A DNA stretch of 64,000 nt from Microvirga terrestris. Lineage in GTDB: Bacteria > Pseudomonadota > Alphaproteobacteria > Rhizobiales > Beijerinckiaceae. Where the stretch lies: the NCBI RefSeq assembly GCF_015694425.1, contig NZ_JADQDN010000006.1:62001-126000 (forward strand), in the 5' to 3' direction. The stretch's first letter is position 1. Every line of letters begins with the position of its first letter. The position numbers were made by a program, and so were the translations under genes. Shown here one piece after another: positions 31,592-39,078 of this stretch. The notes under the pieces were generated by a model. That model worked only from the letters and a program-made list of their open reading frames with translations, was not told the DNA's origin and did not search any database.

Positions 31592-33130
31592 TTAAGCAGC
31601 AGCCGGGCGCCGATCCCCGTGAGCCCGGTAGGAGAGAGCCTCGGCGATATGGATGCGCCGCACCCGCTCCTCCCCGTCGAGATCGGCCAGGGTGCGGCCC
31701 ACCTTCAGCACCCTGTGGAAGCCGCGGGCGGAGAGGCGCATAGCATTGGCTGCATCCCGGATCAGGGACAGGCCCTCCGGGTCGGGCTGCGCCACGTCCT
31801 CCAGAAGCGCCGGCGGGCAGGCAGCGTTCGTCGTCACGCCATCAAGGTTCAGGGCCGCATAGCGCTTGGCCTGCCGCTGGCGGGCCTGGGCCACCCGGGC
31901 CGCAACGTCGGCGGAGCCCTCGGATGGAGCGGGCAGGATCAGGTCGGCCGCCGTCACGGCCGGCACGTCAATGGCGAGATCGATGCGGTCGAGGAGCGGG
32001 CCGGAGAGACGGGCCTGATATTGCGCGATGCAGCGCTCGTTCGGCTGTCGGCGGCAGACATAGCCGGGCTCGGTTGCCTGTCCGCAGCGGCAAGGGTTCA
32101 TGGCGGCGACGAGCTGGAAGCGGGCAGGATACGTGACCCGGTGGTTCGCCCTGGCGATCAGGATCTCGCCCGCCTCCAGCGGCTGCCTCAGGGAATCGAG
32201 CACCTGCGGCTGGAACTCCGGCAACTCATCCAGGAAAAGCACCCCGTGATGGGCGAGCGAAGCCTCGCCGGGCCGTGCATTGAGGCCGCCGCCGACCAGG
32301 GCTGCCATGGAGGCCGAATGGTGCGGAGCCCGGAACGGGCGGCGGTCCGACAGGGCGCCCTCCGCCAGCAGCCCCGCCACAGACTGGATCATCGAAACTT
32401 CTAGGAGCTCCCGCGGCGAGAGCGGCGGCAGGATGGAGGGCAGCCGCTGGGCCAGCATGGATTTGCCGGCGCCGGGTGGGCCGTTCATCAGGAGGTTATG
32501 CGCCCCGGCCGCCGCGATTTCGAGGGTCCGCTTGGCGCTTTCCTGCCCCTTAATATCCTTGAGGTCAGGCAGGACACCGGAGGCCGGCATGATGGCAGGC
32601 TCGGGACGTGCCAGCACCTGGGCGCCCTTAAAGTGGTTGGCGAGCTGGATCAGGGAGCGGGGCGCCAGAATGTCGATGTCGCTGCCGGCCCAGGCGGCCT
32701 CCGAGCCGCAGGCGGCAGGACAGATCAGGCCATGCCCACGCTCATGGGCCGCCATGGCGGCGGGAAGTGCGCCCGCGACAGCGGTGATCGAGCCATCGAG
32801 CGCCAGCTCGCCCAATACCGTGAAGCCGCCCAAGGCGTCGGCCGGAATAGCCCCGATGGCCCCCATGACCGCAAGGGCGATGGGCAGATCGTAATGACTG
32901 CCTTCCTTCGGCAGATCGGCCGGGGCAAGGTTGACCGTGATGCGCTTAGCCGGAAGGGCGAGGCCCGAGGCGATCAGGGCCGAGCGGACCCGCTCGCGGG
33001 ATTCGGCCACTGCTTTGTCCGGCAGGCCGACGATGGTGAAAGCGACCGCACCAGGCGAAATCTGAACCTGGACATCGACCGTCCGCGCCTCAATTCCTTC
33101 GAACGCAACAGTGGAAACGCGCGTCACCAT
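31592..33130 (-). CDS. YifB/ComM family magnesium-chelatase-like AAA ATPase
   Basis: A 512-residue ATPase. An N-terminal ribosomal-S5-like domain with LPDKAVAESRERVRSAL is followed by the AAA core with Walker A GPPGAGKSMLA near residue 217, Walker B FLDELPEF and a zinc-binding C-terminal stretch (MNPCRCG...YCRRQ type cysteines). ComM in gammaproteobacteria is a branch-migration helicase for natural transformation; orthologues are widespread in non-competent bacteria, so the role here is an inference. It is monocistronic on the minus strand, and the 173 bp after it towards olsB hold no gene or strong hairpin. Confidence 0.92.
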   Translation of the reverse strand: MVTRVSTVAFEGIEARTVDVQVQISPGAVAFTIVGLPDKAVAESRERVRSALIASGLALPAKRITVNLAPADLPKEGSHYDLPIALAVMGAIGAIPADALGGFTVLGELALDGSITAVAGALPAAMAAHERGHGLICPAACGSEAAWAGSDIDILAPRSLIQLANHFKGAQVLARPEPAIMPASGVLPDLKDIKGQESAKRTLEIAAAGAHNLLMNGPPGAGKSMLAQRLPSILPPLSPRELLEVSMIQSVAGLLAEGALSDRRPFRAPHHSASMAALVGGGLNARPGEASLAHHGVLFLDELPEFQPQVLDSLRQPLEAGEILIARANHRVTYPARFQLVAAMNPCRCGQATEPGYVCRRQPNERCIAQYQARLSGPLLDRIDLAIDVPAVTAADLILPAPSEGSADVAARVAQARQRQAKRYAALNLDGVTTNAACPPALLEDVAQPDPEGLSLIRDAANAMRLSARGFHRVLKVGRTLADLDGEERVRRIHIAEALSYRAHGDRRPAAA

Positions 33131-33225
33131 CCGGCTCAGACCTCTCGCAAAGCCCGGATGTTAGCGTGGTCTTTTGAAACGCGATAGTGTTGCTTTATTT
33201 TGAGGTGGAGACCCACTTTTTGTGC

Positions 33226-33250
33226 GGAACCGCTGCCTCAGAAAAGCGTT
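33226..33250 (+). promoter_or_regulatory. Predicted EcfG-type general stress promoter
   Basis: GGAAC at 33226-33230, a 16-base spacer and CGTT at 33247-33250 match the alphaproteobacterial EcfG consensus GGAAC-N16/17-CGTT exactly. It lies in the 325-bp gap (33131-33455) between the ComM-like gene and the response regulator and points at the regulator. The start would be near 33258, giving a leader of about 200 nt that contains a short reading frame (33358-33463). Nothing else is evident in this gap. Confidence 0.65.
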
Positions 33251-33455
33251 GAGTCCAACTGCACGGAGAAAGCTGTAAGGCGACCATGTCTCCGAAAAGA
33301 CTGTCCGGGAGGGGCCATTCATGACACGGATCGATTCTCTTTCGCTGAAGCCGCGATGCTGATCCGTCGATTGAAAGGGCCGTTGACTTGGCGTGATCGG
33401 AAGCCAGGTACACGGGCAGAGACTGGCGTGTCCGCTGTCGCGGAGGAGACGAAGT

Positions 33456-33908
33456 TTGAGTAGCGATAAGCCTTTGCGCATCCTCGTCGTTGAGGATGAA
33501 ATCCTGATCGCGCTCGAACTCGAAAGCCTGCTCCAGGATCTGGGGCACGACGTGGTGGGGATCGCAGCCTCATCCCAGGACGCCCTTTCGCTCGGCCGCG
33601 ATCTCAAGCCGGATCTCGCCTTCGTCGATATTCATCTGTCTGACGGCCCCACGGGCGTCGACGTGGCGCGTCATCTCAGCAATGAGCATGGGGTCACGGT
33701 GCTTTTCATGACGGCCAATGCCAAGCGGATTCCGGAGGATTTTGCAGGCGCCTGGGGCGTCATCGCCAAGCCCTATACGGAGCGCGGCGTGCGAGAAGCC
33801 CTCGCCTATGTAATGGCCGGTCAGTCGCGCGAAGCTCAGGAGGCGCGAACGGTGACCTTCGTCCCTTTCGGTCCGGCAACCCGCCAGCGTAGCTCCCAAA
33901 TGTCCTGA
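33456..33908 (+). CDS. Single-domain response regulator
   Basis: A 150-residue receiver domain without an output domain. The acidic pocket is Glu13-Asp14 (VVEDE), the phosphoacceptor Asp58 (FVDIHL), the switch Thr follows in LFMTAN and the conserved Lys is in IAKPYTERG. The last 25 residues are unstructured. It probably relays phosphate or acts by protein contact. A TTG at 33456 is the likely start, because GGAGGAG lies 7 nt upstream; the longer frame from 33393 adds unrelated residues. An exact EcfG-type promoter upstream links it to the general stress response. No kinase gene adjoins it. Confidence 0.85.
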   Translation: MSSDKPLRILVVEDEILIALELESLLQDLGHDVVGIAASSQDALSLGRDLKPDLAFVDIHLSDGPTGVDVARHLSNEHGVTVLFMTANAKRIPEDFAGAWGVIAKPYTERGVREALAYVMAGQSREAQEARTVTFVPFGPATRQRSSQMS

Positions 33909-33922
33909 ACAGGATCTTGCCG

Positions 33923-36637
33923 CTACCCATGTGACTTGAGCCGGTAGAGCGCGTCGAGCGCCTCCCGCGGGGTCATCTGGTCGGGATCGAGAGCAGCGAG
34001 CGATTCCCGCAGGGCATCCTGCTTCGGCACTGCACGCGGTTCGTTGCGGACGGGCACGGCAAAGAGCGGCAGGTCGTCGAGCAACGCGCGCTTCGGGGCC
34101 TCCCGGTCGGATCTCTCCAATTCGCTTAAGATCGTCTTCGCCCGGTCGACGACCTGGGTCGGCAGACCCGCGAGTCGCGCCACCTGCAGACCGTAGGAGC
34201 GGTCGGCGGCGCCGGGCACGACCTCGTGCAGGAACACCACCTCACCGTTCCATTCCGTAACCTTCAGGGTCGCGTTCGAGATGCGTGCCATCCGCTCGGC
34301 AAGTGCCGTCAACTCGTGGAAATGGGTGGCGAACAGCGCCCGGCAGCGATTGGTCTCATGCAGGTGCTCGATGGCCGCCCAGGCGATGGACAACCCGTCG
34401 AAGGTCGCGGTGCCGCGGCCGATCTCGTCGAGGATCACGAGCGAGCGGGCCGTGGCCTGATTGAGGATGGCGGCCGTCTCCACCATCTCGACCATGAACG
34501 TGCTTCGACCGCGCGCCAGGTCGTCGGCGGCACCCACCCGGGAGAAGAGCCGGTCGACGATGCCGATATGGGCTTGCTTAGCCGGCACGTAGGCGCCCAT
34601 CTGGGCCAGCACGACGATGAGGGCGTTCTGGCGCAGATAAGTCGACTTGCCGCCCATGTTCGGGCCGGTGATCAGCAGGATGTGGCCTGCGTCCTTGCCG
34701 GAGAGATCCGAATCGTTGGCGATGAATGGAACGCCCTCGCGCTTAAGCGCGGCCTCGACCACGGGATGACGGCCGCCCTTGATCGTGAAGGCGAGGCCGG
34801 TATCGACCACGGGGCGTGTCCAGTCGAGCCGCATGGCGAGATCGGCGAGCGCCGCCGTCACGTCGATGACGGCGATGGCCTCGGCCGCCGCCGCGATCTC
34901 TCCCGTGAGATCGAGAAGCGCCTGCACCATCTCGTCGAACAGCGCGAGCTCGATCTTCAGCGCTCGGTCGGCCGCGGACGCGATCTTCGACTCGAGCTCG
35001 CCGAGCTCCATGGTGGAGAAACGCATGGCGCCCGCCATGGTCTGGCGATGGACGAAGGTGTCCTTCCAGGGCTCCTTCAGCAGATCTTCGCCCACATTCT
35101 GCGGCACCTCCACGAAGTAGCCGATCATGTGGTTGTGCTTGACCCGTAAGCCCCGACAGCCTGTCTCGGTGGCGTAGCGCGCCTGGAGTGCCGCGATGAA
35201 GCGGCGTGAATCCTGCTGCAGCTCGCGCAACTCGTCGAGATTTGCGTCGAACGCGGCGCGGATGAAGCCGCCGTCGCGCTTCAAGAGCGGCAGCTCGTCG
35301 GCGAGAGCCGCGCTCAGTCGGTCAGCTACGTCCGTGCGCAGGTCTTGGAGCACCTGCGCGGCCTCCGACAGCTCTCTCGGCAGATTGGGCGCGATCGCCA
35401 GCTCAAGCCCGAGTTCGCGCGCGGCGAACAGGCCGTCGCGCACGCAGGCCAGATCCCGCGGTCCGCCGCGTCCGAGGCTCAGCCGTGACAGGGCGCGGGC
35501 CAGATCCGGCGAGCGCTTGAGGATGCGCCGCAGCCGGTCGCGCAGGTCGCCATTCTCGACGAGCGCCGTCACGGAATCCTGCCGGTCGCGGATCAGGCCC
35601 GGATGGGTGAGGGGGCCGGCGAGCCGCTCGGCCAGCAACCGGGCGCCGCCGGGCGTCACCGTGCAGTCGATGGTGGCGAGCAGGCTGCCCGCCCGTTCGC
35701 CCGACAGGGTGCGGGTCAGTTCCAGGTTGGCGCGGGTCGCCGCATCGATGGCGAGCGCCGCGCCGGAGGTATCGCGGGAGGGCGGGTTGAGAACCGGACG
35801 GCTGTCGATCTGGGTCTTCTCGACATAGAACAGCGCACTGCCCGCAGCCGTGATCTCGGCGGGGCTGAAGGACCCGAAGGCATCGAGGGTCGCGACTCCG
35901 AAATAATCCTTCATCCGACGCTCGGCGGAGGCCGGATCGAGCCCCTCGCGGGACAGGGGCGTGATCGAGGCGCGGGTCTCCTGCCAGAAGTTTTTGAGCT
36001 CCGGATCGTCGTGAATGACGTCCGGCACCAGGATCTCGCGGGGCTCGAAGCGGGCGATCTCGGCTGAGAGGCCGGTGCCGTCCGTCTCGCTCAACACGAA
36101 ATGGCCTGTGGATATGTCGAGGGCGGCCAGGCCGTAGCACCATTGCGTATCGGAGGCCCGGCGCCGGGCGATGGCGAGCAGATAATTGGCCCGCCCAGGC
36201 TCCAGCAGGCGTTCCTCGGTGATCGTGCCCGGCGTGACGAGCCGCACCACGTCGCGGCGAACCACCGACTTGGAACCCCGCTTCTTCGCTTCCGCCGGAT
36301 CCTCGGTCTGCTCGCAGACCGCCACTCGGTGGCCCAGGCCGATGAGGCGCTGGAGATAGTCGTCGGCCCGCTCCACGGGCACGCCGCACATGGGGATGTC
36401 CTGCCCCTGGTGCTTGCCACGCTTGGTGAGAACGATGCCGAGCGATTGGCTGGCGATCTCCGCATCCTCGAAGAACAGCTCGTAGAAATCCCCCATCCGG
36501 TAGAACAGCAGGCTGTCCGGGTTGGCGGCCTTGATCTCGATATACTGCGCCATCATAGGCGTGACGCGGCTGTCCTGCGCGGGCGCAGCGTTCGATGGGG
36601 CGGTCTCGGAGGATTTGTAGGCGGCTTGGGACGACAT
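33923..36637 (-). CDS. mutS: DNA mismatch repair protein MutS
   Basis: MutS recognises mismatches and recruits MutL. The 904-residue protein has the mismatch-reading F51-Y-E53 motif ([12 protein letters not shown]), connector and lever domains, the ATPase P-loop [13 protein letters not shown] near residue 659, Walker [17 protein letters not shown] and the dimerising C-terminus. All parts are present. It is divergent from maeB across about 150 bp, the same pairing as in Sinorhizobium and relatives, but glnD, its usual other neighbour there, is elsewhere. It converges on the response regulator with a 14-bp gap. Confidence 0.97.

Positions 36638-36786: not shown

Positions 36787-39078
<2,292 letters not shown>

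Follow-up and report, generated by a model that had tools for sequence, protein, structure and literature searches.

The window, i.e. the whole stretch of 64,000 nucleotides analysed here (G000:C18:62001-126000), belongs to a 4.2 Mb genome assembled in 21 contigs. At the locus of interest, yifB (minus strand) is followed by an EcfG-type promoter motif (plus strand), a gene for a single-domain response regulator (RR; plus strand) and mutS (minus strand). The features, with positions counted within the window, are these:

31592-33130, minus strand: gene for a yifB/comM-type Mg-chelatase-like ATPase (Pfam Mg_chelatase, ChlI and Mg_chelatase_C)
33226-33250, plus strand: EcfG-type promoter GGAAC-N16-CGTT, exact match, with GGAAC at 33226-33230 and CGTT at 33247-33250
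33251-33260, plus strand: GAGTCnnACT block directly 3' of CGTT, conserved in Microvirga
33347-33463, plus strand: 3'-terminal relic of an HWE/HisKA2 kinase gene otherwise deleted, found by tblastn, with an open frame
33442-33447, plus strand: Shine-Dalgarno-like GGAGGA of the RR gene, inside the kinase relic, read from the sequence
33456-33908, plus strand: orphan single-domain RR, LovR-like with a PhyR-type receiver, TTG start, Pfam Response_reg
33923-36637, minus strand: mutS, the convergent neighbour (Pfam MutS domains I-V)

RR orthologs were searched for at E<=1e-25 among 48 genomes of the soil bacterium Microvirga, 39 of which carry one; second RR copies in G037, G019 and G004 were left out of the 39. 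By gene content at the locus, the 48 genomes comprise 15 with both a kinase gene and the RR gene, 24 with the RR only, two with the kinase only, six with neither, and one (G035) placed in an unresolved class as its locus runs off a contig edge. The divergent neighbour yifB, which served as the anchor for promoter position, adjoins the RR locus in all 39 Microvirga loci, and so does mutS. Microvirga also accounts for 16 of the 17 best loci among the closest named relatives of the RR. In G002 (loci L016 and L151), yifB matches as two overlapping pieces, possibly reflecting a frameshift or a sequencing error.

An earlier, sequence-only reading had placed an exact GGAAC-N16-CGTT on the plus strand at 33226-33250, pointing towards a receiver-only protein, and it was right on both counts: the motif is exact, and the RR downstream, whose best start is the TTG at 33456 and whose stop ends at 33908 (150 aa), carries Pfam Response_reg alone (52.4 bits). 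GGAAC-N16/17-CGTT is taken as the EcfG promoter consensus. The number of such motifs is by itself unremarkable and at chance expectation in 64 kb. Two matches (N15-18) were present in the window against 1.35 expected, with at least two in 36 of 100 shuffles, and the whole genome has 66 N16 matches against 49 for a reversed control pattern. The second N16 motif in the window (38887-38911, minus strand) falls inside a malic-enzyme-like open reading frame (36787-39078).

As the count is uninformative, the motif is called a real promoter-type site because of its conservation at orthologous loci, the check that the sequence-only reading had itself proposed. The exact motif is present in 39 of 39 Microvirga RR loci, each having exactly one forward copy upstream of the RR (N15-18 allowed), with a spacer of N16 in 38 and N17 in one (G020), 86-122 nt from the yifB start; no exact motif was found on the reverse strand between the yifB and RR starts in these 39 loci. 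All nine motif bases are the same in every one of the 38 N16 rows (identity 1.00), whereas mean identity is 42% in the spacer, 30% in the 25 nt to the left and 56% in the 25 nt to the right. No other 5mer-N16-4mer pair within the 180 nt next to the yifB start is as common as GGAAC/CGTT (38 of 39 loci); the runner-up, which overlaps it, occurs in 32. By locus class, the exact motif is found in 39/39 RR loci, 1/2 kinase-only loci and 0/6 loci with neither gene. A chance motif is ruled out by this conservation, not by the count. PhyR, NepR and EcfG are all encoded in the same genome (the C14 locus; Pfam PhyR domains, NepR, and sigma-70 regions 2 and 4), and exact N16 motifs precede both phyR and nepR-ecfG.

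The GAGTCnnACT block is exact as a whole in 28 of 39 loci, and its single columns are conserved in 33-37 of the 38 N16 rows; it was absent after the 11 other N16 motif sites examined in the same genome. The transcription start is predicted at about A33258, within this block, which may represent either the region of the start site or a site for a regulator.

The RR belongs to NCBIfam family NF009973 (190.5 bits against a cut-off of 158) and is the sole protein of its genome above that cut-off. Residues E13, D14, D58, T86 and K105 are invariant in 39/39 loci, the phospho-acceptor site being intact as judged from this residue conservation. PhyR structures make up its eight best PDB sequence matches and, with a predicted model of mean pLDDT 83, its seven best fold matches, and it is 35% identical to the PhyR receiver of its own genome. 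The link to the general stress response that the sequence-only reading had drawn thus gains support, the receiver being nearest to that of PhyR. By sequence and fold PhyR is the closest known protein to the receiver domain, but the window RR is a receiver only, of 150 aa, and Pfam detects no N-terminal sigma-like domain in it.

The same reading had reported no kinase nearby. This is true of the window today; however, an HWE/HisKA2 kinase formerly lay between the promoter and the RR and was deleted, leaving its 3' end, and the RR is an orphan because of that deletion. In 15 of the 39 Microvirga loci, a PAS/LOV-like HWE/HisKA2 kinase gene is situated between motif and RR; the two are then 1.2-1.3 kb apart, and the kinase frame runs into the RR start. 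In the 24 RR-only loci, the window included, the distance is 174-516 nt. One such kinase, that of Microvirga sp. 3-52 (L011), has 385 aa with PAS, HisKA_2/HWE and HATPase domains. Its residues 348-385 match the relic with 61% identity (E 1.2e-7; tblastn against the window's genome, 33347-33460), rising to 66% across residues 351-385, and the relic frame stays open to a TAG at 33461-33463, this stop overlapping the RR start. Of the 24 RR-only loci, 14 yielded a relic at E<=0.01. With a related HWE kinase as query, 29 matches were obtained in the window's genome, of which the relic alone lies within the window. Relocation of the kinase to another place is ruled out: 17 of the 48 genomes have an ortholog (E<=1e-60), at this locus alone, and the best full-length match to the kinase query in the window's own genome is 33% identical.

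These 17 genomes are the 15 with both genes plus G018 and G022, and four of the 17 kinase matches span one TGA. In G022 (L178) and G018 (L182), the kinase is retained and the RR lost, the G018 kinase also retaining its LOV cysteine and the motif. In the six genomes with neither gene, yifB and mutS are about 0.1 kb apart (G008, G011 and G031) or have other genes between them (G003, G043 and G010). The sequence TTGACTTGG within the relic, picked out by eye as a possible promoter, was rejected: it encodes LTW in the intact kinase and is missing from some RR-only loci.

Only two of the 17 Microvirga kinases (G013 and G018) retain the LOV cysteine, 13 having Trp and two (G004 and G022) other residues at this position. 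All 19 loci examined in the sister genus g9 retain the cysteine (in NCR-F/M/L-LQ), and so do the Pseudorhodoplanes kinase of L025 and all seven further kinases, of which four belong to second copies in g9 and three to other genera. Because relatives outside Microvirga keep the cysteine and most Microvirga kinases do not, the likely order of events, as read from the sequences, is a photoactive LOV kinase first, then loss of the cysteine, and then loss of the kinase. The Trp-bearing kinases are possibly light-insensitive LOV-like sensors. The H-box and N-box are intact in 15 aligned Microvirga kinases (the kinase-bearing ones among L136-L149) despite the change from Cys to Trp. LOV-cysteine motifs occur elsewhere in 14 Microvirga genomes, 15 of the 48 having a match, one of them at this locus only; no such motif was found when the window's genome was searched.

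Out of 57 rows, 20 further loci were sampled besides those already included. In genus g9, a related kinase lies directly upstream of the RR in all 19 loci examined, with mutS within the fetched flank in 12. The exact motif precedes the kinase in five of these 19 loci, three more being one base off, and because of this low count the promoter is not universal beyond Microvirga. Among more distant loci (L208-L221), seven of 14 have no LOV-type kinase of the Microvirga-locus kind upstream. In Devosia, Rhizobium, Mesorhizobium and similar genera (23 loci, L026-L048), the RR has no upstream LOV-type kinase, and in most of these loci a distantly matching HWE-type kinase (21-27% identity) lies downstream of the RR in convergent orientation. 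The exact motif was present within 500 nt upstream of the RR in six of the 23, with N15 in L028 and N16 in L032, L033, L039, L040 and L042. The latter five, of Rhizobium type, have a lone RR behind an exact EcfG-type motif, with the distant HWE-type kinase convergent downstream.

The history of the locus was followed on a tree built from the codons of yifB and mutS in 47 Microvirga and five g9 loci, with G018 placed by mutS alone. The RR-only state requires eight changes on this tree, at least five of them forced by well-supported branches, and kinase presence requires seven. A hand count allowing losses only, with some forks open, gives seven RR-only groups: a clade of eight including the window, a clade of nine, G015, G041, G002, G025, and the clade of G023, G024 and G044. 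G015, a recent case, is nested in a kinase-bearing clade (97/90), and relative to G045 it differs by a single deletion of about 1.05 kb, which leaves a short piece at the start of the kinase gene and its last ~35 codons. From these comparisons, the RR appears to be what remains of a light-sensor operon of two genes, which repeatedly lost its kinase gene by deletion but retained the promoter and the RR; the promoter is inherited from the kinase-RR operon. At the level of sequence, comparison across genomes shows the linkage of promoter and operon, the deletion of the kinase and the conservation of the RR.

Strong purifying selection acts on the orphan RR and maintains it. The median pairwise dN/dS of its receiver is 0.084 in the window's clade and 0.064 in the clade of nine, and it is 0.119 in kinase-bearing genomes (nine of the 15 such genomes). 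For the last 36 codons of the relic, the values are 0.70 and 1.04 in the two RR-only clades versus 0.48 in the intact kinase end; these come from NG86 applied to short sequences in pairs that are not independent, and the calculation gave division warnings. The relic is under little or no purifying selection and is not clearly kept as a peptide, so that a selected leader peptide is unsupported.

Among the nearest known systems is that of Caulobacter crescentus, in which lovK and lovR are described as SigT-controlled and as forming together a phosphate sink that drains MrrA (PMC5964349). The ancestral anatomy of the Microvirga locus is alike, with a LOV-type HWE/HisKA2 kinase beside a single-domain RR, and so are the general-stress sigma control and the proposed feedback role (PMC5964349, PMC6530869). 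The two differ, however, in that: the kinase has been deleted in the window, and most remaining Microvirga kinases have no photoactive cysteine; and the window RR passes the NF009973 cut-off, above which the Caulobacter control genome has no protein. A sink function for the window RR is putative, being drawn from this likeness. According to the account of the Caulobacter assays (PMC5964349), LovR by itself left MrrA~P undrained in vitro, and LovR~P accumulated; lovR overexpressed alone is reported not to have repressed stress transcription (PMC6530869). Because of these two results, an orphan RR acting as a sink would need another kinase or a phosphatase.

Brucella abortus LovR (BAB1_0099) provides a precedent for a separated RR: it is described as having no adjoining kinase gene, as expressed in dependence on the general stress response, and as a proposed phosphate sink, and LovR proteins are said there to have low similarity among species (PMC4438053). 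Its LOV kinase persists elsewhere in the genome, however, and its gene, described as having no sigma motif, is under indirect control (PMC4438053), whereas the search of the window's genome found no LOV-cysteine motif and the sigma motif before the window RR is exact.

We consider it rather probable that the RR is what is left of an operon of EcfG promoter, LOV-type HWE kinase and RR, and that it is now an EcfG-induced damping receiver acting via other HWE kinases. The proposed course is that: the ancestral unit would have consisted of an EcfG promoter, a PAS/LOV-type HWE kinase and a single-domain RR, next to mutS; the Microvirga kinase would mostly have lost its photoactive LOV cysteine and then have been deleted on several branches; at each RR-only locus, the EcfG promoter would have been spared upstream and, downstream, the RR together with its ribosome-binding site, the promoter now driving the RR via a leader of ~200 nt that holds the kinase relic; EcfG would transcribe the RR from about 33258, inducing it when the general stress response is on; other HWE/HisKA2 kinases would phosphorylate the RR; and the RR, with its PhyR-like receiver, would compete with PhyR for phosphoryl groups, damping the response. 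The most likely role is that of a feedback receiver which is induced by EcfG and acts in trans on other HWE kinases; whether it lowers or raises the stress response is guessed from analogy. A bolder version, which we put forward only tentatively, is that in Microvirga a photoreceptor operon for blue light and stress has repeatedly and independently become a kinase-free, EcfG-induced mimic of the PhyR receiver, a decoy or sink in trans for the remaining HWE kinases, providing damping free of both light and a cognate kinase.

The main rival to a sink is an MrrA-like hub role, in which the RR, rewired after the loss of its kinase, would serve PhyR as a promiscuous phospho-carrier with a positive effect, much as MrrA and SdrG do. 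MrrA, SdrG and Mext_0407, the last being the different single-domain RR that acts in Methylobacterium, are described as single-domain RRs in that role (PMC5964349). Like these FATGUY regulators, the window RR is receiver-only and linked to the alphaproteobacterial stress response; its phospho-acceptor site is invariant, and the many HWE-type kinases of its genome (the 29 query matches, relic included) could feed it. However, no FATGUY signature is visible on inspection of the RR sequence, which has LFMTAN where that motif would be expected. SdrG is, moreover, a weak sequence match (3.9e-8 versus 9.5e-18 for a PhyR), and we regard a hub as a rather unlikely role.

It is more doubtful still that the RR and its promoter are mere passengers, i.e. 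left-overs en route to loss with no present role. Both genes have indeed been lost in six of the 47 resolved Microvirga genomes and the RR alone in two, and the kinase relic decays almost freely. Yet the RR has a dN/dS of 0.06-0.08 in kinase-less clades of eight and nine species, its phospho-site is invariant in 39/39 loci, and the promoter boxes are invariant while the spacer between them diverges. Equally improbable is that a sigma-70 promoter drives the RR, the EcfG-type site serving another transcript or nothing: a sigma-70-like pair (9/12) is present on the same strand at 33174-33201 (shuffles mean 0.1), the leader is long, and chance alone would be expected to produce such a motif in 64 kb, but the motif keeps its position and orientation in 39/39 loci, which all have the RR downstream of it (along with the kinase in those that possess one), it is absent from the six loci lacking both genes, and most of the leader is unalignable across the genus (17 Microvirga upstream regions), no other conserved product being apparent from the alignment.

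With the damping receiver as the preferred reading, its novelty has to be stated more narrowly than in the sequence-only reading, which had proposed a feedback component not yet described: a sigma-controlled LOV-kinase/RR pair for which feedback has been proposed is on record as lovKR of Caulobacter (PMC5964349, PMC6530869). The parts are of known kinds; what appears to be new is the repeated loss of the kinase with promoter and regulator kept. Repeated loss of a cognate kinase with such retention was not found in the literature searched, nor were reports that combine LOV, histidine kinases and blue light with Microvirga, and the matches listed for the general stress response in Microvirga included none on this locus, as far as their titles and abstract openings indicate.

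The Microvirga loci and their relatives form a natural series, from a LOV kinase with its RR, through kinases without the LOV cysteine, to the RR alone and finally to neither gene; its fixed point is a single conserved stress promoter. This series makes it testable how a LovR-type regulator functions without LovK, a question left open by the Caulobacter work because the regulator there seems to need its kinase. It also shows that an "orphan" response regulator can be accounted for by seeking the relic of its partner.
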